NCBI RefSeq assembly: GCF_002224675.1
Contig: NZ_NMPZ01000006.1
Location: forward strand, 62,001 to 126,000
Source: Segatella copri
GTDB taxonomy: Bacteria; Bacteroidota; Bacteroidia; Bacteroidales; Bacteroidaceae
DNA length: 64,000 bases
Direction of reading: 5' to 3'
Shown here: positions 10,256 to 32,657 of the stretch, piece by piece
Numbering within the stretch: the stretch's first letter is position 1
How the letters are laid out: every line of letters begins with the position of its first letter
The notes under the pieces: model-generated
Seen by the model: only the letters and a program-made list of their open reading frames with translations
The model's database searches: none
Told to the model about the DNA's origin: nothing
Program-made: the position numbers and the translations under genes

Positions 10256-11734
10256 CTATAGATTGAATCTCAAACCGAACTGGAGATTGAAATTCAACTT
10301 CTTATCCTTGAAGGTATTTTCCACATGGCTCCCGTTATCGAAATAATATTTAGCACCCGGTTCGATATACAGACCCACCTTTGGTGTGATGTCATACTGC
10401 GCACCGAGCGAAGCCTTTCCAGAGAACTGCACTCTGTCTCGCTTGGCATTCTCTTTCTTTACACCCTCTTCTTCGGTATCATTCTTCACATTGTAATCAG
10501 CCTCAGCACCAGCCATCACATAAGCATGGAAGCCTCCACTCTGCCAGAATTCATAATTCAATCCCACCGGAATACCCACATAATGAAGCACCTGATGAAC
10601 ATTGTAGCTACTACCTGGTGCGTATGGATAAAAATCAGAAGAAGTGCGTGTATATACCATACCCGTACTCAAAGACAGACGAGGGGCAATACCAAAGGCT
10701 ACCTGCAAACCAACAGATACTGGAGCATGATGCTTGGCATTCACCTGCTGTTTTCTTTGAATCGCCTTATAGGATGCCAAGAGATATTCTTCTCCATATA
10801 TGCCTCCAGCCGTCGGATCAGGGATGACACCCGGCATCGGTTCTGCCATCGTTCCATAGCTAAAATCATTATAGCCTCCAGACGCGTCGGAATTCACACC
10901 GCCCAGACTTGGCGTCAGGTTTTCGGCATAGAGTTGCATCGACCAGCCAGAAACCTCCTCATTTTTTTCAAAATGATAAGACTGAGAAGCATACGCTGCC
11001 GCATGATGATCGGTAGAGCGGGTTAAGGCCTTATAATCGGATTTCTCTGCAAGCAAAGAGATTTCATTCTCAGATTCTTCCTTAAGAACATCATCACTCG
11101 TCTTCTTTTGGGATGCAGCGGATTGCAAATCCGCTGAAACAACGAGGGATGGAGCGGGTTGAGATGCTGCGGATTGCAAATCCGCTGAAACTGCGTGGGA
11201 TGGAACGGATTGAGATGCAGCGGATTGCAAATCCGCTGAAACTGCGTGGGATGGAGCTGGTTGAGATGCTGCGGATTGCAAATCCGCTGAAACAACGTGA
11301 GATGGAGCTGGCTGGGATGCAGCGGATTGCAAATCCGCTGAAACAACGTGGGATGGAGCTGGTTGAGATGCAGCCAATTGCAGATTACCCTTTTCTACAT
11401 CCTCCTGGTGCAGATAAACATAGCTTCCACCTATTCCCAATAATGCCACGGCTGCTGCAGCCGCAGACCATCGCTTGAAATAGACTATCCTGGCATTCTT
11501 TTTAGCCTCTGAACTGTCGTGTAAAACCCTGGCATCCTTTTTAGCCTCTGAACCAACGTTTGAATCAGCAGATTCTGAGCTTTCTGAAGCTATCGTCTGT
11601 GGATTCGACGAAACAGATTCTATATTATTCTGAGCAAGCGATTGTTCAATGCCTGCCCACAAGTCGTGGCTGACAGACTCCTGATAGCCTGCCAACTGGT
11701 CTTGAAGTTTGCTTGTCCAATCTTGATTACTCAT
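10256..11734 (-). CDS. Anti-sigma-like membrane protein with C-terminal outer-membrane beta-barrel domain
   Basis: A 492-residue partner of the upstream ECF sigma factor. Residues 1-90 are a soluble acidic segment, as in cytoplasmic anti-sigma regions. A membrane helix follows (WSAAAAAVALLGIGGSYVYL, about 91-110), then a 17-residue repeat tract (ADLQSAASQPAPSH-VVS type, about 118-207) and a low-complexity linker. The last ~180 residues resemble a porin-like barrel (VGLQVAFGIAPRLSLSTGM, FSGKASLGAQYDITPKVGLY, final LNFNLQFGLRFNL). The start overlaps the sigma gene by eight bases, so the two are translationally coupled. A one-piece inner-to-outer membrane sensor is inference. The gene could also be read simply as a beta-barrel protein. 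Confidence 0.65.
   Translation of the reverse strand: MSNQDWTSKLQDQLAGYQESVSHDLWAGIEQSLAQNNIESVSSNPQTIASESSESADSNVGSEAKKDARVLHDSSEAKKNARIVYFKRWSAAAAAVALLGIGGSYVYLHQEDVEKGNLQLAASQPAPSHVVSADLQSAASQPAPSHVVSADLQSAASQPAPSHAVSADLQSAASQSVPSHAVSADLQSAASQPAPSLVVSADLQSAASQKKTSDDVLKEESENEISLLAEKSDYKALTRSTDHHAAAYASQSYHFEKNEEVSGWSMQLYAENLTPSLGGVNSDASGGYNDFSYGTMAEPMPGVIPDPTAGGIYGEEYLLASYKAIQRKQQVNAKHHAPVSVGLQVAFGIAPRLSLSTGMVYTRTSSDFYPYAPGSSYNVHQVLHYVGIPVGLNYEFWQSGGFHAYVMAGAEADYNVKNDTEEEGVKKENAKRDRVQFSGKASLGAQYDITPKVGLYIEPGAKYYFDNGSHVENTFKDKKLNFNLQFGLRFNL
11118..11389 (-). repeat. 51-base in-frame tandem repeat built on a palindrome
   Basis: GCGGATTGCAAATCCGC occurs at 11118, 11169, 11220, 11271 and 11322, exactly 51 bases apart, with a decayed sixth copy at 11373. 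On the coding strand each palindrome encodes ADLQSA and the rest of each unit encodes a proline/serine spacer. The same palindrome core occurs in intergenic repeats at 25.9-28.6 kb. Confidence 0.9.
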
Positions 11735-21290: not shown

Positions 21291-21545
21291 CTATACTCCC
21301 ACTCCATCCGGCTCTCCGAGATAGTAAAAGATATAATCTACCATCTTGGGCGTGAAACTATGCAGCGAAGGTTTATACCCCAATTCCTGCAGTTTGACAT
21401 AGAGCGGAGTGCAGCGCTTCACCCAATCCATAAACTCATCTCTCGCAGCATGCCCCTTGGAACGGCTGTGAGGACAGTAGAGGTGAGCAAGCTCCTGCTT
21501 GCTCATCACTCTACGTTCTACAAAATGTTGCTTGGTAACATTCAT
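21291..21545 (-). CDS. DUF4248 family protein
   Basis: 84 aa. It matches the family pattern: FVERRVMSKQELAHLYCP at the N-terminus, an alanine/arginine region and the C-terminal GYKPSLHSFTPKMVDYIFYY with LGEP near the end. It looks like a small DNA-binding-type fold (KQELA...LGEP), but no function is known. In Bacteroidales it typically accompanies the HU-like/smalltalk/amidase set. The amidase gene lies 83 bases upstream. Confidence 0.8.
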   Translation of the reverse strand: MNVTKQHFVERRVMSKQELAHLYCPHSRSKGHAARDEFMDWVKRCTPLYVKLQELGYKPSLHSFTPKMVDYIFYYLGEPDGVGV

Positions 21546-21628
21546 CTAGTTTTAATTTTTAGTTAGTAATCTTATCTTCTACAAAGTTACAAAAAAATCG
21601 GATAGGGTGTTTCATCTGATTACAAAAT

Positions 21629-22069
21629 TTAATATTTACAATTCAGATGTAACAAGGGCTGGAGCGTGGTGGCATCAAAGCAGGGACACGCCTTCTGCAC
21701 TCCAGGCAGGTCACGATGCCCCAGAATGGTGCGGATGCCGGGAAACTGTATCTTCAGCTGAACGATCAGCTTCTTCATCGCCTTCTTCTGCTCCCCGGTA
21801 CGGGTATCCGCCACATAGCCGTTCTCATCCAATCCGCCCTCATAGCAGATTCCGATGGAATGTGCATTCCAGCCACGGGCATGGGCACCCATGCGCTCCA
21901 GCGGACGGGTGGCATGTACCTTGCCGTCACGGCTGATGAAGAAATGATAACCGATGTAACGCCAGTGGTTCACCTCCACGTGATCGTGGTAAAGCTGATG
22001 CACGGTGTAAGGGTGGTTGCAGCGGGTTGCGCTGCAGTGTACCACAATCATTGTAATTTCTCTAGTCAT
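21629..22069 (-). CDS. N-acetylmuramoyl-L-alanine amidase (T7-lysozyme type)
   Basis: 146 aa, one complete Amidase_2 domain. Zinc ligands are His in IVVHCSAT (residue 11), His in ILGHRDLPG and Cys in ACPCFD. The fold-typical HWRYIGYHFFISRDG and GAHARGWNAHSIGICYEGG are present. It cleaves the amide bond between MurNAc and L-Ala. There is no signal peptide, as in phage endolysins. It heads a minus-strand set with DUF4248 and DUF5675. Confidence 0.92.
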   Translation of the reverse strand: MTREITMIVVHCSATRCNHPYTVHQLYHDHVEVNHWRYIGYHFFISRDGKVHATRPLERMGAHARGWNAHSIGICYEGGLDENGYVADTRTGEQKKAMKKLIVQLKIQFPGIRTILGHRDLPGVQKACPCFDATTLQPLLHLNCKY

Positions 22070-24184: not shown

Positions 24185-25096
24185 ATGGTTATGAAGTATT
24201 TAGATCCTAAGGCAGACCTTACGTTCAAGAAGATATTCGGCAATCATCCGAAAAGAATGATCAGCCTTCTGAACGCACTCCTGCCACTCAGTGAAGAAGA
24301 GCAGATACACGAGATAAAGTATCTGCCTACAGAACTTGTACCCCAGCTCGAAGGGGGCAAAAACACCATTGTGGATGTACTCTGCACCGATGCAAGAGGT
24401 AGAAAGTTCTGTGTGGAAATGCAGATGGAATGGTCCGACGCATTCCAGCAGCGAGTACTGTTCAATGCATCCAAGCTCTATGTGAGTCAGGCTAAAAAGG
24501 GAGGAAAATACAGTGAACTGCAACCCGTATATTCTCTCAACCTGATAAATGATATCTTTGCGCATGATACTCCAGATTTCATCCACAACTACCGAATCGT
24601 GCATGACAAAGACAGCAATAAGGTCATCGAAGGCTTGCATTTCACCTTCATAGAACTTCCGAAGTTCACTCCACATTCCATCACCGACAAGCGGATGATG
24701 GTATTGTGGCTCCGTTTCCTCACGGAAATCAATTCCAATACGCAGAAGATTCCTGCTGACCTGCTCAATGACCCGGAGATTGGAAAAGCCGTAGAAGAGT
24801 TGGAAATTTCCGGCTTTACAGATGCCGAACTCAGAGCCTACGACAAGTTCTGGGATTCAGTAAGTGTTGAAAGAACCCTCCTGGATGACAGATATCAAAA
24901 AGGTAAGGAAGAAGGAATAGCTGAAGGCATGGAAAAAGGTAGAGCTGAAGGCATGGAAAAAGGCATGTCACAACGAAGCCTTGAGATTGCCCGAAAGATG
25001 TTGGCAAAGGGCTTAGATGATACCACTATTATGGAAATGACAGGGTTAAGCCTGGATGAAATCAGGCTATTGAAATCGCAAATGAATAAAATATAA
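24185..25096 (+). CDS. Rpn family PD-(D/E)XK nuclease / putative transposase (copy 1)
   Basis: A 303-residue PDDEXK_2 protein. N-terminal LDPKADLTFKKIFGNHPKRM is the family signature. Active-site residues are Asp in TIVDVLC and the E-x-Q pair in KFCVEMQMEW. The C-terminal quarter has the family's repeat (EEGIAEGMEKGRAEGMEKGM) followed by a small helical domain (LEIARKMLAKGLDDTTIMEM, TGLSLDEIRLLK). Rpn proteins are DNA endonucleases linked to recombination and, in enterobacteria, to phage defence. It is flanked by element C fragments on both sides. Confidence 0.88.
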   Translation: MVMKYLDPKADLTFKKIFGNHPKRMISLLNALLPLSEEEQIHEIKYLPTELVPQLEGGKNTIVDVLCTDARGRKFCVEMQMEWSDAFQQRVLFNASKLYVSQAKKGGKYSELQPVYSLNLINDIFAHDTPDFIHNYRIVHDKDSNKVIEGLHFTFIELPKFTPHSITDKRMMVLWLRFLTEINSNTQKIPADLLNDPEIGKAVEELEISGFTDAELRAYDKFWDSVSVERTLLDDRYQKGKEEGIAEGMEKGRAEGMEKGMSQRSLEIARKMLAKGLDDTTIMEMTGLSLDEIRLLKSQMNKI

Positions 25097-25448: not shown

Positions 25449-25882
25449 TAATAATTAAACCTAAAAAACAAAAGCAAGTATCAACTCTTCAGGAGTTGGT
25501 ATTTATATTTATAGATATATGATATCTTTTGGATTTTCGGAATAAAAGCCCTGCCGGCTTTCACAAGCAGGCAGGGGATAATTATAAGTAAAAGATGTAA
25601 ATAGATGTACCACTGTACAACCTACTTATTAAAACTATAAAATTAATCTTGCAGATTCTACACACATTAATCTGCTTCCTTGAATATGAAGGAGGCATAT
25701 TCACATATACCCGCAATCAATAGACTCTAATTCTTGCGATTATTTACCACAGGCTATCTCTAGCCTACCTATTATATCTCGAACTGTCTTTTTAGAAAAC
25801 GCCCCGGCGGAGACATAACTTCCGCCGAGGCGCGGCATTTTCATGCGCATTCTATGAAATGAATTTCTTCCGTTCTAGACTG
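25449..25882. other. Gene-free stretch with isolated hairpins
   Basis: No ORF, promoter match or repeat family member is seen. It contains hairpins CAACTC-TTCA-GGAGTTG near 25475, CCCTGC...GCAGGG near 25550-25575 and CGCCCCGGCGGA...TCCGCCGAGGCG near 25800-25834. Confidence 0.5.
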
Positions 25883-26103
25883 TCCTCCGTTAGGCGTCCC
25901 GACGGATATGCTATCCGTCGTAAAAAAGGTTCGACCTATTAAGCCGGGGGATTTGTAATCCCCCTATCCCATCGATATGCCGGCTAATGCCTGGTTGCTG
26001 GGGATTGCAAATCCCCAGAGCATAAAGAGGTTAGGTCAGTTTTTGACGGCGGATTGCAAATCCGCCGGAACGCCTAACGGGGGATGGGCATATCCGGCGC
26101 TAC
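25883..26103. repeat. Palindromic element C, copy 3 (complete)
   Basis: About 220 bases. The outer inverted ends are CCTCCGTTAGGCGTCCC and its partner GGAACGCCTAACGGGGG. Inside are four GGAT[A/T]NNN[T/A]ATCC palindromes with different extensions: CGACGGATATGCTATCCGTCG-like, GGGGGATTTGTAATCCCCC, CTGGGGATTGCAAATCCCCAG-like and GGCGGATTGCAAATCCGCC. GGTTCGACCTATTAAGCC and ATATCCGGCGCTAC are further marks. Confidence 0.85.
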
Positions 26104-26154
26104 TGGCTGCATAAAAATCATCCCCCAACCTGCAAACTGCGGGCTGGGGGGGGG

Positions 26155-26222
26155 TGCAATCCCCTATCCCATCGATATGCTGGCTACTGCCTGGTTGCTG
26201 GGGATAACATATCCCCAGAGCA
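26155..26222. repeat. Palindromic element C, copy 4 (middle part only)
   Basis: AATCCCCTATCCCATCGATA followed by GCTGGGGATAACATATCCCCAGAG, matching the centre of copies 3 and 5. Confidence 0.75.
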
Positions 26223-26304
26223 GAAATAAAGCAGTAAATACCTTAATTTATTCTAAAATACAAAATTATATAGCCAAAATATATCGTTTTTCAAAATTTA
26301 TATA

Positions 26305-26312
26305 TATCTTTG
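26305..26312 (+). promoter_or_regulatory. -7 promoter element of higBA
   Basis: TATCTTTG followed by CACTTATAATT, about 24 bases before the higB ATG. Confidence 0.65.
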
Positions 26313-26336
26313 CACTTATAATTAATAAAGAGAATT

Positions 26337-26636
26337 ATGAGAATTATTTCGCATAGAAAACTAAAAGAGTTTTATGAATCCCCAGGACGAGAAGACTCTA
26401 AAGTTGCCCTTGAAAGGTGGTACCAGATAGCAGAAGAAGCAGAATGGCATAACTTTTCCGATATTAGAGCAGACTTCCCTGATGCCGATTACGTAGGTAA
26501 TCAACATTACGTATTCAACATCCGAGGAAATAACTATAGATTAGTAGTTGTCATAAAATTCACTATAGGCCGACTTTTTGTAAGATTTGTCGGAACACAT
26601 AGTGAATACGACAAAATTGACTGTACCAACATTTAA
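26337..26636 (+). CDS. higB: HigB-type mRNA interferase toxin
   Basis: A 99-residue RelE-fold toxin. MRIISHRKLKEFYESPGRED at the start, WHNFSDIRADFPDADYVGNQ, then VFNIRGNNYRLVVVIKF and a C-terminal FVRFVGTHSEYDKI match the HigB family, which cleaves mRNA on the ribosome. The toxin precedes the antitoxin, which is the usual hig order, with an 11-base gap. It has its own Bacteroidetes promoter. Confidence 0.9.
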   Translation: MRIISHRKLKEFYESPGREDSKVALERWYQIAEEAEWHNFSDIRADFPDADYVGNQHYVFNIRGNNYRLVVVIKFTIGRLFVRFVGTHSEYDKIDCTNI

Positions 26637-26647
26637 CATCAAGAATT

Positions 26648-27010
26648 ATGGAAAAAATAACAAAAGAACAGTATGAGTTTGCACTCAACAGAATAGAAGA
26701 GCTTTTACCATTGGTAACGGATGAAACTCCTGCTAATGATAAAAATGCCATTGAACTGACATTAATGTCAGATATTGTGGAGTCATACGAAAAGAGACAT
26801 TTTCCTATAGGAAAGCCTTCAGTATCCGAACTCATTGAACTTTCACTGAGTGAAAAAGAAATGACACAAAAACAATTAGCAACAGAAATCGGAATAAGCC
26901 CTTCCCGCATTAACGATTATATTACTGGACGTTCGGAACCTACATTAAAAATTGCCAGATTGCTTTGCAAGGTACTGAATATTACTCCTGCTGCTATGTT
27001 ACAATACTAA
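26648..27010 (+). CDS. higA: HigA-type antitoxin (XRE helix-turn-helix)
   Basis: 120 aa. The N-terminal helical part (1-60) is acidic. Residues 65-115 are an XRE HTH: LSEKEMTQKQLATEIGISPS, RINDYITGRSEPTLKIARLL. It should neutralise the preceding toxin and repress the operon promoter. A stem with the AATCCCCCC-type terminator sequence follows 20 bases after the stop. Confidence 0.92.
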   Translation: MEKITKEQYEFALNRIEELLPLVTDETPANDKNAIELTLMSDIVESYEKRHFPIGKPSVSELIELSLSEKEMTQKQLATEIGISPSRINDYITGRSEPTLKIARLLCKVLNITPAAMLQY

Positions 27011-27029
27011 GTAATAGTTTTCAGCTTAC

Positions 27030-27080
27030 AAGAAATCCCCCCATCCCGCTTTCTCAAGCCGGATGGGGGGTTTGCTTATG
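27030..27080 (+). terminator. Terminator of higBA, AATCCCCCATCC family copy 2
   Basis: AAATCCCCCCATCC / GGATGGGGGGTTT stem with loop CGCTTTCTCAAGCC, then TGCTTATGTG. Confidence 0.75.
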
Positions 27081-27162
27081 TGATAGAGAGAGATTTATGA
27101 ATGTCTATCAGGCAGTTTTCCCACTTTTTATTTGGGCGTTTCAGGAAAAAAGCGTAATTTTG
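27077..27162 (+). promoter_or_regulatory. Repeated Rpn upstream segment U with promoter, copy 1
   Basis: TATGTGATAGAGAGAG, GTCTATCAGGCAGTTTTCC, TTTG at 27131-27134, 20 bases, TAATTTTG at 27155-27162. The promoter is complete. The segment recurs before Rpn copy 3 and, without its -7 element, at 30369. It also contains a 23-codon ORF (MNVYQAVFPLFIWAFQEKS...) of doubtful meaning. Confidence 0.7.
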
Positions 27163-27197
27163 CAGTGAAACTAAATGTTGAACTAAATGAATGGCGT

Positions 27198-27461
27198 ATG
27201 AAACAGGTAGAAGAATGGGAGTATGAAGCAAGCAAGATGGCATACCGGGATATCAAGAACTCCATTGATACGGCGAAGCAAGAAGGTCTTGCGGAGGGTA
27301 TGGAAAAGGGTATGGAATTAGGTATGGAAAAAGGAATGAAAAAAGGAATGAACCAGAAAGCCCTGGATATTGCCAGGAATATGCTTGCTGATGGTGTTGA
27401 CATCAATCTGATCATGAAGTATTCCGGACTTACCCAAGAGCAAATAGAAAAATTAAAATAA
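27198..27461 (+). CDS. Rpn C-terminal domain protein, nuclease domain deleted (copy 2)
   Basis: 87 aa from the ATG at 27198. The first eight codons (MKQVEEWE) correspond to the start of Rpn copy 3, then the sequence jumps in frame to its C-terminal region (YEASKMAYRDIKNSIDTAKQ onward). About 200 codons holding the whole PD-(D/E)XK core are missing. The repeat tract is longer than in copy 3 (EKGMELGMEKGMKKGMNQ), while the final helical domain is nearly identical (SGLTQEQIEKLK). Promoter, start and stop are intact, so it may be expressed. It may be a decayed gene or a free antitoxin-like C-terminal domain. Confidence 0.75.
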   Translation: MKQVEEWEYEASKMAYRDIKNSIDTAKQEGLAEGMEKGMELGMEKGMKKGMNQKALDIARNMLADGVDINLIMKYSGLTQEQIEKLK

Positions 27462-27469
27462 GATATTAT

Positions 27470-27690
27470 CCCCGCTAGGCGTCCCGACGGATTTGTAATC
27501 CGTCGTAAAAAAAGGTTCGACCTATTAACCCGGGGGATTTGAAATCCCCCTATCCCACCACCATACAGTCTACAGCCTGATTGCTGTGGATAACATATCC
27601 CCAGAGCATAAAGAGGTTAGGACATTTTTTGACGGCGGATTGCAAATCCGCCGGGACACCTAACGGAGGATAGGGATATCCGGCGCTGCT
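27470..27690. repeat. Palindromic element C, copy 5 (complete)
   Basis: The same order of modules as copy 3: GCTAGGCGTCCCGACGGATT, GGGGGATTTGAAATCCCCC, GTGGATAACATATCCCCAG, GGCGGATTGCAAATCCGCC and ATATCCGGCGCTG. It begins eight bases after the stop of the truncated Rpn gene. Confidence 0.85.
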
Positions 27691-27699
27691 AATTTGTGT

Positions 27700-28029
27700 T
27701 TAAGTTGTGAATTCAATTTTACGCATCACAAGGATGCAAGTTATTAAAATAGTAAGAATAGTAAAAGGAGCTGCACACAAGAGTGCCGGGAAAAAATCCC
27801 ACGCTACCAGATACCAGTATGAATACATTGGAAGCATAACAGATAATCCACCCCAAGAAAAGCATTTGAACATACTTAATGGTTCTTTTAAAGGATGTAT
27901 TCTTTGCCCACAATGATTGCATTCGGTATAATAATTGGTACCATGCCAAAAATACTTACTTATAACTCGCAATGACACTTGCTTACCACAAGTGGGGCAT
28001 ATTGCATTCGAAAGATTTATGTCTAACAT
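27700..28029 (-). CDS. Zinc-ribbon membrane protein, unknown function
   Basis: 109 aa. Residues 11-43 form a zinc ribbon (CPTCGKQ ... CNHCGQ), followed by two hydrophobic segments (about 58-80, MLPMYSYWYLVAWDFF, and 82-102, LLCAAPFTILTILITCILV). A cytoplasmic ribbon with two membrane helices is predicted. A good promoter precedes it. I do not recognise a specific family. Confidence 0.65.
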   Translation of the reverse strand: MLDINLSNAICPTCGKQVSLRVISKYFWHGTNYYTECNHCGQRIHPLKEPLSMFKCFSWGGLSVMLPMYSYWYLVAWDFFPALLCAAPFTILTILITCILVMRKIEFTT

Positions 28030-28069
28030 ATTATTGTTGCGTTTTGAAGTTTAAACTAAATTTTCATTG

Positions 28070-28077
28070 CAAATATA
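28070..28077 (-). promoter_or_regulatory. -7 promoter element of the zinc-ribbon gene
   Basis: Minus-strand TATATTTG (plus CAAATATA), 41 bases before the ATG at 28029. Confidence 0.6.
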
Positions 28078-28162
28078 CGAAATTAAGTTGAATCCTGCAA
28101 GACTAATCGGCATGAACAAGACAAAAAGTGTGATAAATAGCATAAAACCAAACATAAGATAG

Positions 28163-28444
28163 TTTCTTGGCTACTTTTTCTCTGAAAATGGCGTTGTAAG
28201 AGCTTTCCTTAGAGAAGGTAAATCTGTATCAATTAACCATTCTCTAAATGACTTAGAACAGCAACTCAATCCCGATGTGTTCTTTCGCGTCAACCGACAG
28301 TACATTATAAACATATCATTCATTGAGAAGCTCACCAAATTCTTTAACTATAAAATGATTATCAAACTCTATGGCTTTACTGATTTACAGATCATCGTCA
28401 GCAAAGAAAGAATCTCCCAACTCAAAAGTTGGTTAGACAGATGA
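28163..28444 (+). pseudogene. LytTR DNA-binding domain fragment
   Basis: A 93-codon open frame without a start codon, preceded directly by TAG. The translation has LytTR hallmarks: VVRAFLREGKSVSINHSLND, LEQQLNPDVFFRVNRQYIIN, ISFIEKLTKFFNYKMIIKL, then IIVSKERISQLKSWLDR before TGA. LytTR domains form the DNA-binding end of response regulators. The receiver domain and start are missing, so this is the 3' remnant of a regulator gene. Confidence 0.8.
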
Positions 28445-28485
28445 CGAAATAAAGAAACAATTGGTCATCGTGACCTGCCTGGCAT

Positions 28486-28635
28486 CCAAATCCCCCTATC
28501 CCATCACTATAAAGACTACAATCTGGGTGCTGGGGATAGCATATCCCTAGAGCCTAAAGAGGTTAGGTCATTGTTTGACGGCGGATTGCAAATCCGCCGG
28601 AACGCCTAACGGAGGAAAGGGATATCCGGCGCTAC
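28486..28635. repeat. Palindromic element C, copy 6 (right two thirds)
   Basis: AAATCCCCCTATCCCATCAC, CTGGGGATAGCATATCCCTAG, GGCGGATTGCAAATCCGCC, GGAACGCCTAACGGAGG and ATATCCGGCGCTAC. It ends immediately before the U segment of Rpn copy 3. Confidence 0.85.
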
Positions 28636-28655
28636 GAAAGTTTTCCTACTTTTTA

Positions 28656-28687
28656 TTTGGTCGTTTCAGGAAAAAAGCGTAATTTTG
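28656..28687 (+). promoter_or_regulatory. Promoter of Rpn copy 3 (within segment U copy 2)
   Basis: TTTG at 28656-28659, 20 bases, TAATTTTG at 28680-28687. The upstream open frame from 28657 overlaps the promoter, which supports the start at 28723. Confidence 0.75.
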
Positions 28688-28722
28688 CAGTGAAACTAGA
28701 TGTAGAATTAAATGAATGGCGT

Positions 28723-29595
28723 ATGAAAAAGGTAGAAGAAAGATACATCAGCTTGCTGACCGACTTCGGCTTCAAGCGAATATTCGGAACGGCAATGAAC
28801 AAGGATTTGCTCATTTGCTTCCTCAACAGCTTGTTTAATGGCAGACAGGTTGTGAAGGATGTGTCGTATCTGAATCCGGAGCACGTGGGAGATGTATATA
28901 CCGACCGCAAGGCCATCTTCGACGTATATTGCGAAGGCGAAAACGGCGAGAAGTTCATCGTGGAAATGCAGAATGCTTACCAGACTTATTTCAAGGACCG
29001 CTCTCTCTTCTACTCCACTTTCCCGATTCGCGAGCAGGCACCAAAGGGGAGCGACTGGGATTTCAAGCTCAATCATGTCTATACTGTTGCGCTGCTCAAC
29101 TTCAACATGAATGAAGATGCCTTCGACAAGGAGAAGATCCGCCATCATGTACAGTTGTGCGATACCACTACCCACAAGATTTTCTACGACAAGCTGGAGT
29201 TTATCTATGTAGAGATTGCGAAATTCAATAAGACACTAGGAGAACTGGAAACGCTCTACGAGAAGTGGCTTTATGCGCTGAAGAATCTCTATAAGCTTAC
29301 CCAGCGCCCGAAGGAGCTGTGCGACAAGGTGTTCGACCGTCTCTTTGAGGAAGCCGAGATTGCCAAGTTCACTCCACAGGAGATGAGGGAGTATGAAGCA
29401 AGTAAGATGGCATACCGGGATATCAAGAACTCCATTGATACGGCGAAGCAAGAAGGTCTTGCGGAGGGTATGGAAAAAGGAATGAACCAGAAAGCCCTGG
29501 ATATTGCCAGAAATATGCTTGCCGATGGTGTTGACAGCAATCTGATCATGAAGTATTCCGGTCTTACCCAGGAACAGATAGAAAAATTGAAATAA
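28723..29595 (+). CDS. Rpn family PD-(D/E)XK nuclease / putative transposase (copy 3, full length)
   Basis: 290 aa from the ATG at 28723 (MKKVEERYISLLTDFGFKRI). Active-site elements are Asp in AIFDVYCEGENGEK and E-x-Q in FIVEMQNAY. The middle helical region is typical of the family (RPKELCDKVFDRLFEEAE). The C-terminal section has one short EGMEKGMNQ repeat and the terminal helical domain also found in copy 2. Possible internal starts for a C-terminal product are ATG 29383 and ATG 29407. Only moderate similarity to copy 1 suggests two lineages. Confidence 0.9.
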   Translation: MKKVEERYISLLTDFGFKRIFGTAMNKDLLICFLNSLFNGRQVVKDVSYLNPEHVGDVYTDRKAIFDVYCEGENGEKFIVEMQNAYQTYFKDRSLFYSTFPIREQAPKGSDWDFKLNHVYTVALLNFNMNEDAFDKEKIRHHVQLCDTTTHKIFYDKLEFIYVEIAKFNKTLGELETLYEKWLYALKNLYKLTQRPKELCDKVFDRLFEEAEIAKFTPQEMREYEASKMAYRDIKNSIDTAKQEGLAEGMEKGMNQKALDIARNMLADGVDSNLIMKYSGLTQEQIEKLK

Positions 29596-29614
29596 GATAT
29601 TATTTTAGAAGTAA

Positions 29615-29670
29615 CAGATAAACAGAAATCCCCCATCCTGCCTTCTCAAGCCGAATGGGGGTTTTGCTTA
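29615..29670 (+). terminator. Terminator of Rpn copy 3, AATCCCCCATCC family copy 3
   Basis: ACAGATAAACAG, AAATCCCCCATCC / GAATGGGGGTTTT stem, then GCTTA. One mismatch in the stem. Confidence 0.7.
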
Positions 29671-30368: not shown

Positions 30369-30436
30369 TATGTGATAGAGAGATTTATGAATGTCTATCA
30401 GGCAGTTTTCCTACTTTTTATTTGGTCGTTTCAGGA
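30369..30436 (+). repeat. Orphan copy 3 of the Rpn upstream segment U
   Basis: TATGTGATAGAGAG, GAATGTCTATCAGGCAG and TTTTTATTTGGTCGTTTCAG are nearly identical to 27077-27146, but the sequence diverges before the -7 element and no Rpn gene follows. It is a scar of a lost or moved Rpn gene. Confidence 0.75.
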
Positions 30437-30545
30437 AGCTAGTTTCCTACAGATTTCACAGATAACACAGATGCATAGACTTACTATAATAATTGTTTTT
30501 TCTTTCAAGTGGCGAACAACTCTTGATTTCCGCCCCAAAATTTTG

Positions 30546-30629: not shown

Positions 30630-31271
30630 ATGGGAATGAATGTTAAAGCTATTGAGCGCAAGATTGCTTACTTGGGTAAGGAAGGTGGCAAGGACCAGTA
30701 CATGTACGTGATGCAGCCACTGATCTACAACAAGCTCACACCGGAGAAGGTGATCCAGCAAGCTGCCCTGCATTGCGGTCTGACTCCTGCCGTGATGAAC
30801 GTGGCTTACGCTGCCCTGAGCGAGGTGATCAAGGCGTGGGCTACAGAGGGTCACTCCGTATCGGTACCGGGTCTGGGCACCATGCGTTTCGGTCTGCGTG
30901 CCAATGCGGTGAAGTCGGTAGAGGATGTGAGCACCAAGCTCATCACCCAGCGACGCGTAATCTTTAGCCCTAATATGGAGATTAAGCAGGAGCTTGCCAA
31001 GACGGGTATCAGCATCACCTGCGTAAACCGCGATGGCGAAGTGGTAAAGAACATCTCTTCCAACGATTCGAAGGATGTGGAGGACACCGAGGGTGACAAC
31101 CAGGAGAACCCTGACGAGAACAAGGGTAATACCGGAACTACCGGCGGCAACACGGGCGATACCGGAACCCAAGGTGGCGGAAGCGATACCGGAACCCAGG
31201 GTGGCGGTTCGCAGACTGGCGGAAGCGATACCGGCGACAACGGAGAAAATGGTGATAATGTAAGTCTCTAA
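30630..31271 (+). CDS. HU-like DNA-binding protein with Gly/Thr/Asp-rich tail
   Basis: 213 aa. Residues 1-130 match the Bacteroidales HU-like family: YLGKEGGKDQYMYVMQPLIY, TPEKVIQQAALHCGLTPAVM, VPGLGTMRFGLRANAVKS, RVIFSPNMEIKQEL. The tail from about 145 is acidic, then a repetitive GGxTGDTGTQGGGS-type low-complexity stretch. It is probably a DNA-binding architectural protein. The smalltalk peptide follows after 12 bases, the order typical of this family. Confidence 0.85.
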   Translation: MGMNVKAIERKIAYLGKEGGKDQYMYVMQPLIYNKLTPEKVIQQAALHCGLTPAVMNVAYAALSEVIKAWATEGHSVSVPGLGTMRFGLRANAVKSVEDVSTKLITQRRVIFSPNMEIKQELAKTGISITCVNRDGEVVKNISSNDSKDVEDTEGDNQENPDENKGNTGTTGGNTGDTGTQGGGSDTGTQGGGSQTGGSDTGDNGENGDNVSL

Positions 31272-31538: not shown

Positions 31539-31634
31539 CATATATAAGATGTATAACCGAAATGCAGATAGACTGCAACGATAGTATTACAAATGTTTAA
31601 GGTCACAAATTGTGATCTCCAAAAGGATATACAC

Positions 31635-32657
31635 ATGACAGATAAAAATAACCAAGACATCACCCTACAAGGGTTTGTCAACGACATAAAGACTATCATC
31701 AATACAGCTCGCACCAATGCCGTGCGCAGTGTTGATTTTTGCCGAGTGCAAATGTACTGGGCTATAGGACAGCGTATAGTAGAAAAGGAACAACAAGGGA
31801 AAGAACGTGCAGACTATGGCACCTACCTTATAAAGAACCTTGCCAAGGAGATTGAGCCTGAGTATGGCAGCGGATTTGGTGTACGTCAACTGGAACGTTG
31901 TCGCCAGTTTTATACTATCTATCCAATTGCGTCCACACTGCGGACGCAATTGAATTGGTATCAATATAAGCAACTTATTGCTATTGCCGACCCCGACAAA
32001 CGAGAGTATTACGAACTGGAAGCTGTCAACGAGGGTTGGTCCGGTCGCCAGCTTGAACGCCAAATCAATTCGATGCTGTATGAGCGTCTTCTAATGAGCA
32101 ATGACAAGGAATCTGTACTTGCAGTAGCACGCAAAGAACGTATTCCAGAGTCGCCACAGGAGATTATCAAAGACCCGATGGTGCTGGAGTTTCTTGGTCT
32201 GGAGCGCAAGGCTTCTTACTATGAGAAAGACTTAGAGAGTGCCATCATCTCTCATATAGCCGACTTCTTGCTCGAAATGGGCAAGGGCTTTTCTTTTGTG
32301 GCAAGACAAAAGCGTCTGTTGATAGAGGATGATGAGTATTTTGCGGATTTAGTTTTCTATAATCGTCTGCTACGATCTTTTGTGGTTATTGAAATAAAAA
32401 ACCATAAACTAACACATCAAGACCTCGGTCAGTTGCAACTATACGTCAACTATTACGACCGATACGAAAAGACAGACGACGAGAATCCAACCATCGGTAT
32501 TTTGCTCTGTACCGACAAGAATGATACTGCGGTAAAACTTGCTTTACCAGAAAACAACAAAACGATTCTTGCCAGCAAATACCAACTCTATCTGCCTACA
32601 ACAGAACAGCTGATTAGTGAAATCAACGAGGTCAAAAAGTTGGCAGAAAAGCATTAA
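31635..32657 (+). CDS. DUF1016/YhcG-type PD-(D/E)XK nuclease
   Basis: 340 aa from the ATG at 31635. The N-terminal domain (15-150: VQMYWAIGQRIVEKEQQGKE, YGSGFGVRQLERCRQFYTIY, LNWYQYKQLIAI) is DUF1016_N. The C-terminal nuclease domain has Asp in YFADLVFYNR followed by the E-x-K of FVVIEIKN. The family is widespread in accessory regions, often near restriction or toxin-antitoxin loci. It is monocistronic here with a strong terminator. Whether it acts in defence or repair is unknown. Confidence 0.92.
   Translation: MTDKNNQDITLQGFVNDIKTIINTARTNAVRSVDFCRVQMYWAIGQRIVEKEQQGKERADYGTYLIKNLAKEIEPEYGSGFGVRQLERCRQFYTIYPIASTLRTQLNWYQYKQLIAIADPDKREYYELEAVNEGWSGRQLERQINSMLYERLLMSNDKESVLAVARKERIPESPQEIIKDPMVLEFLGLERKASYYEKDLESAIISHIADFLLEMGKGFSFVARQKRLLIEDDEYFADLVFYNRLLRSFVVIEIKNHKLTHQDLGQLQLYVNYYDRYEKTDDENPTIGILLCTDKNDTAVKLALPENNKTILASKYQLYLPTTEQLISEINEVKKLAEKH

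Follow-up and report, generated by a model that had tools for sequence, protein, structure and literature searches.

Rpn nucleases of E. coli have been previously described as toxins with a built-in inhibitor. The full-length protein RpnL is the toxin, and RpnS, made from an internal start, is the antitoxin that blocks it (PMC10327210). In RpnC a repeat number that is off by one four-residue unit abolishes inhibition, and four-residue repeats are also found in Rpn of Bacteroides fragilis (PMC10327210). In E. coli, rpnS genes that stand on their own have been described before: ypaA, located behind rpnE, and rpnCS, located behind rpnC, and the YpaA protein has been detected (Zhong et al. 2023, PMC10327210).

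In the window analysed here (the whole stretch of 64 kb from Segatella copri), a gene of this type is located at 27198–27461 on the plus strand. The original prediction saw in this gene and a neighbouring full-length nuclease a two-gene pair new to Bacteroidales. The arrangement as such is known from E. coli (rpnE-ypaA, rpnC-rpnCS), and the titles and abstracts found in searches of open-licence papers include none on excision-made RpnS or on Rpn pairs in Bacteroidales. We favour, with a probability of about 0.55, the reading that the window gene is a deletion-made RpnS-type gene encoding a register-specific antitoxin-type protein, of a kind made repeatedly and kept by selection at least once.

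Structure of the short gene and its surroundings

The short gene has 87 codons and a stop, and it was recognised as a free-standing Rpn C-terminal (RpnS-type) gene from its open reading frame, a profile match and the predicted fold of its 87-aa product. Two full-length rpn genes are found in the window on the same strand. The neighbouring one (28723–29595; PF12784, E = 6.3e-73) encodes a nuclease of 290 aa with FDVYC and VEMQ intact. The second (24191–25096; PF12784, E = 1.9e-46) belongs to another subfamily and has the same number of tail units as the short gene. The leader and first six codons of the short gene (27114–27215) are identical to the neighbouring long copy (28639–28740) at 96 of 102 bases (94%), and from 27217 the short gene tracks the long copy from 29387 with 90 of 91 bases identical. 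At the deletion junction between these two parts, a single base (27216, plus strand) matches neither flank in the alignment to the long copy. The short gene lacks the long-copy segment at 28741–29386 (plus strand), and the active-site motifs FDVYC (28918) and VEMQ (28960) fall within this segment. The predicted in-frame loss of the nuclease domain was confirmed: a net 645 nt, i.e. 215 codons, are gone, the tail is rejoined in frame, and the leader and promoter box are kept. The claim that the gene begins with the same first codons as 28723 holds for six codons, although the third of them differs (MKQVEE in the short gene versus MKKVEE in the long copy) and base 27216 is unmatched. Judged by these alignments, the window gene is a free-standing RpnS-type gene derived from a Segatella/Prevotella rpn gene by in-frame internal deletion.

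The 12-nt (four-codon) tandem repeats of the short gene, 4.5 copies at 27297–27350 on the plus strand, map to the long helix 1 of the predicted structure. Its tail contains six four-residue units, compared with three in neighbour 28723 and four in another close copy, located on contig C2; the original prediction had likewise seen an expanded repeat tract. The gene had also been proposed to derive from 28723. The match is close, but homology to the C2 copy extends farther upstream than homology to 28723, and the seven sites at which the short tail departs from the C2 copy outside the repeats are all synonymous. Since the C2 copy differs only synonymously there, neighbour 28723 is not established as the parent and, on sequence grounds, need not be. 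The seven synonymous differences may predate the deletion, and the window copy is probably young. Its closeness to relatives and its position in a repeat-rich stretch would also fit a young neutral remnant, that is, a leftover frame still undecayed after deletion of the toxic domain. We consider such a remnant possible but doubtful in the light of the data on relatives given below.

A promoter-like box, TTTG-N20-TAATTTTG, precedes the short gene (27131–27162), and a near-identical one, differing by one base, precedes the long copy (28656–28687; both on the plus strand). We take both boxes to be of the Bacteroidales −33/−7 type. Searching the 64 kb for the pattern with up to three mismatches gave these two matches, whereas 100 shuffles gave none. 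A generic sigma-70 scan found four promoter-like sites versus 7.4 in shuffles and a terminator scan four terminator-like sites versus 2.5; none of these sites was used. About 1.3 kb of other sequence separates the short gene from the 28723 gene, and the two are not an operon.

Several other features were noticed around the rpn genes. The rpn leader occurs a third time (30377–30437, 97% over 61 nt), here with no rpn gene behind it, and this is possibly the relic of a lost copy. Clusters of palindromic repeats of the GGCGGATTGCAAATCCGCC type, with three to four copies, flank and separate the rpn genes (25880–28640), and a similar palindrome core occurs inside a 51-nt tandem array at 11108–11382. 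A gene pair for a HigB-type toxin and an HTH protein is located immediately upstream of the short gene (26337–27010), and a YhcG/DUF1016-type PD-(D/E)XK nuclease gene is found near the rpn cluster (31593–32657). HU-HIG DNA-binding genes are near two rpn copies (window 30630–31271; L048:1504–2067), and a DUF4248 gene and an amidase gene (window 21291–22069) are 2–3 kb from the rpn gene at 24191. An association of rpn with a HU-HIG/DUF4248/amidase module is possible.

Regarding the product, a PDB search with the tail profile recovered E. coli RpnA-S (7TH0; E = 3.5e-7), outranked by eleven repeat proteins, mostly designed, each via weak stretches only. The 87 aa matched TIGR01784 at positions 213–273 (E = 1.2e-8, below the family cut-off), and PF12784, which is present in the neighbour, was absent among the matches up to E = 0.1. 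The AlphaFold model (mean pLDDT 82.8, pTM 0.43) has helices at 2–64, 69–76 and 80–84. Its best PDB match in Foldseek was again 7TH0 (probability 1.00, TM 0.86 on target, E = 0.05), with 0.6 Å over 41 columns. A predicted model of full-length 28723 (mean pLDDT 57.7) was rejected because of its poor quality. Sequence and predicted fold together support an RpnS-type tail: the tail is homologous, the predicted fold has three helices with the first lengthened by repeats, as in E. coli RpnS, and the nuclease domain is absent. The repeat number, which in RpnS equals that of the inhibited RpnL, is different in 28723 and in the C2 copy and equal at 24191. By analogy with E. coli, the product would most likely dimerise via its long helix and would pair only with Rpn tails of equal repeat number.

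Recurrence and selection in relatives

Relatives were collected in genus searches of 60, 398, 247, 398 and 398 genomes, partly overlapping, the 247-genome search covering the matches listed, and one additional scan of named genomes gave 29 loci. Many, not all, short loci were fetched, largely chosen for the short frame, and the class sizes given here are not population frequencies. There were 180 distinct tail-bearing frames: 75 full-length, three full-length without the N-terminus, 30 at an edge, two masked, 16 in-frame and five out-of-frame deletions, four called frameshifts, nine in tandem and 36 alone. One masked locus (L131) was excluded from the counts, and L141, classed with the frameshifts, consists of a long gene and, 361 bp behind it, an ORF that carries two tails. 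Nucleotide search with the start region among the 36 lone frames added ten in-frame cases (L048, L050, L112, L115, L121, L134, L169, L180, L182, L185) and two out-of-frame cases (L008, L051). The frame of L048, L112, L115, L121 and L182 was read from the translated ORF; L008, L051 and L180 were checked again. L189, where the leader match ends before the start codon, was not counted as in-frame. By locus, 26 nuclease deletions are in frame versus 7 out of frame; the window short, classed as an edge frame with its locus cut at the start, is outside the 26.

Because a direct repeat can itself set the frame, ten loci of a direct-repeat (KKLF-like) class were set aside (L081, L133, L139, L147, L175, L176, L177, L179, L180, L184). 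Their junction overlap versus the nearest long genes is 16 nt in L139, L147, L176 and L177, 13 nt in L184, 7 nt in L175 and 6 nt in L179; L081, L133 and L180 were assigned by junction residues only. Without this class, and with L121 and L169 merged, there are 15 in-frame versus 7 out-of-frame cases (P = 9e-4 against one third). HMM-level cases alone, with the class excluded, give 7 versus 5 (P = 0.07). The counts support the view that nuclease-deletion shorts recur and that the proportion found in frame exceeds one third. Such an excess speaks against neutral remnants, although the seven out-of-frame loci and a comparable short with a frameshift (L049) are what remnants would leave behind. That shorts stay open and near long genes in other Prevotella genomes is true in part: many are open and nine are in tandem with long genes, but L049 is not intact.

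Specifically, the genome of the window carries a second free-standing tail on contig C29 (L005) with another N-terminus and a partial in-frame deletion on contig C15 (L011). Segatella copri iA622 carries another short (L112). In the complete genome G044 there are three shorts, which have two different junctions among them, and one of the three is the frameshifted L049. The nine tandem shorts are distributed over seven loci, three being in one array, and in L145 the long gene itself is frameshifted. In L092 (1850–3487, minus strand) a full-length rpn gene is followed by three tandem shorts, overlapping or abutting and differing in repeat number. In L151 and L186 we noticed rpn leader-like sequence just 5' of an internal Met (METLNRLPW, MDTLSRLPW), which is perhaps another route to a free-standing tail. 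Among viral contigs, none of 104 pattern matches encodes a relative.

Some copies have more than the gene in common. L048 and L049 of G044 are found in two places with one junction and about 600 bp of upstream DNA in common, and L169 and L174 have about 450 bp around the gene in common and nothing beyond. This could be taken as a sign of a MITE-like non-autonomous derivative of a mobile rpn element that spreads via both retained ends. However, the common stretches end at different points between copies, and no fixed ends were found for rpn in E. coli (PMC10327210). We regard this explanation as highly improbable.

Synonymous and non-synonymous changes had been suggested as a measure of constraint. 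L091 (G393) and L133 (G376), from two species, are syntenic, with 1499 bp upstream 96.5% identical and the junction in common. With 11 synonymous versus 3 non-synonymous changes between the two (omega 0.06, P = 7e-6), this one syntenic pair indicates that the short gene is under purifying selection after the deletion, unlike a neutral remnant. The comparison was less clear elsewhere: omega is 0.36 in L121/L169, a pair with a common junction. L039/L187, shorts syntenic on both sides but with deletion origin not established, have 4 synonymous versus 1 non-synonymous changes. L147/L175 (omega 0.03) were rejected as proof of post-deletion selection; synteny ends at the leader, and they may be two separate deletions because there is a direct repeat at the junctions (16 nt, 7 nt). 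Our results on relatives suggest that such genes arose repeatedly in Bacteroidota and that at least one, judged from a single syntenic pair, has been kept by selection.

Repeat register and possible targets

Tail lengths change in four-residue steps in 165 of 172 cases. With the window short at register offset 0, neighbour 28723 is at −12 and the C2 copy at −8. In Prevotella tandem arrays none of nine shorts matches its long partner in register. For E. coli, K-12 and 12 strains from a spread list of 40 matches were taken, and both genes were measurable in 12 of 13; none of the 12 rpnE-ypaA pairs matches, and 8 distinct combinations occur. In all, 4414 genomes contain a match to at least 80% of the rpnE-ypaA query. 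K-12 ypaA is marked as a pseudogene in RefSeq. The main text of PMC10327210 does not say that RpnE and YpaA differ in register. The chance of a match under random pairing is 0.095 in Prevotella and 0.056 in E. coli. It is important to note that the no-match counts oppose a matching rule while avoidance is unproven, since random pairing rarely matches; register avoidance as a statistical claim was rejected, random pairing also often yielding no match. Equal register is seen between the C29 short and the C2 long copy and between the window short and the Rpn at 24191, the tails being divergent in both cases.

According to the original prediction, the short gene may act in trans as an inhibitor dedicated to the nuclease next to it. 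The two belong to the same subfamily and have near-identical tails outside the repeats, and E. coli RpnS does block RpnL (PMC10327210). However, the window short is three repeats longer than 28723, whereas one repeat is enough to abolish inhibition in RpnC, and register matched in neither the tandem nor the E. coli pairs. Because of this difference, the window copy is probably not an inhibitor of 28723 at present, and the role of dedicated partner seems quite unlikely.

The dedicated role is further opposed by genomes in which shorts occur but no nuclease-bearing Rpn was found. PF12784 at E ≤ 1e-20 is present in 22 of 26 short-bearing genomes, and 4 of 26 are blank. A repeat search of ten of these 26 genomes, among them all four blanks, with the cut-off relaxed to E ≤ 0.001 found no PF12784 in G376 and G440, and in G206 and G355 found it only inside short frames. 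In G403 the only PF12784 match is its own deleted gene. PF04754 was found in none of the four blanks, and the full-length profile gave only short frames there, plus a weak match (E = 0.008) in G206. Completeness is 93% in G376, 100% in G440, 83% in G206 and 93% in G355, and many rpn frames are at contig ends, so that a full-length copy could have been missed.

Full-length genes may also differ from those of E. coli in how they provide RpnS. In the linker before the repeats, where the internal RpnS start is expected, 40 of 75 full-length genes have an ATG, 29 have only GTG or TTG, and 6 have none of the three. The commonest ATG position is found in 17 of the 75, GTG at position 209 in 22 and TTG at position 205 in 25, and these GTG and TTG codons could be usable as internal starts. 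These genes show no clear conservation of an internal ATG start like that of E. coli. Since the linker ATG is poorly conserved by position, separate short genes may stand in for the internal start here.

Under our preferred reading of a deletion-made, register-specific antitoxin-type protein, the products would most likely act on Rpn nucleases of the same register, giving protection from them or tuning them, whether these are resident or incoming. A broader idea is that free-standing RpnS genes provide a set of immunity proteins, each specific to one register. They would be made repeatedly by excision, kept even after loss of all nucleases, and kept out of step with resident nucleases because a matching free antitoxin would permanently silence phage defence, whereas a non-matching one would guard against foreign Rpn toxins of other repeat length. 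We regard this broader idea as unlikely.

Comparison with known systems

YpaA/RpnES and RpnCS of E. coli (PMC10327210) are like the genes described here in being separate small tail-only genes with four-residue repeats, and rpnE-ypaA also in that the repeat number is unlike that of the partner in all 12 pairs measured here. The E. coli copies are directly behind their source gene. Many of the shorts found here result instead from in-frame loss of the nuclease domain, with the native start kept; they are dispersed, some being alone in the genome, and the window short also keeps the promoter box of the rpn gene. Intragenic RpnS (RpnA-S, 7TH0) has the same tail fold as predicted here, but its translation begins at an internal start within the long gene, whereas here the start is the native rpn one, kept through the deletion.

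Solitary antitoxins of type II toxin–antitoxin systems are similar in that the antitoxin part is kept and the toxin lost, for which anti-addiction is a common explanation. In rpn, however, toxin and antitoxin are one gene, and since they occupy one reading frame the toxin can be lost only if the gene suffers an internal deletion or is truncated from its 5' end. The loci described here show that toxin loss with retention of the antitoxin has occurred by this route repeatedly, and at least one of the products has been kept. Mismatch in register between separate RpnS genes and their linked nucleases, seen in the pairs measured from two phyla, raises the question of what the targets of free-standing RpnS are. 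The gene form is genuine, recurs and belongs to a known type; its recurrent origin by internal deletion, the solitary copies and the register mismatch are new.
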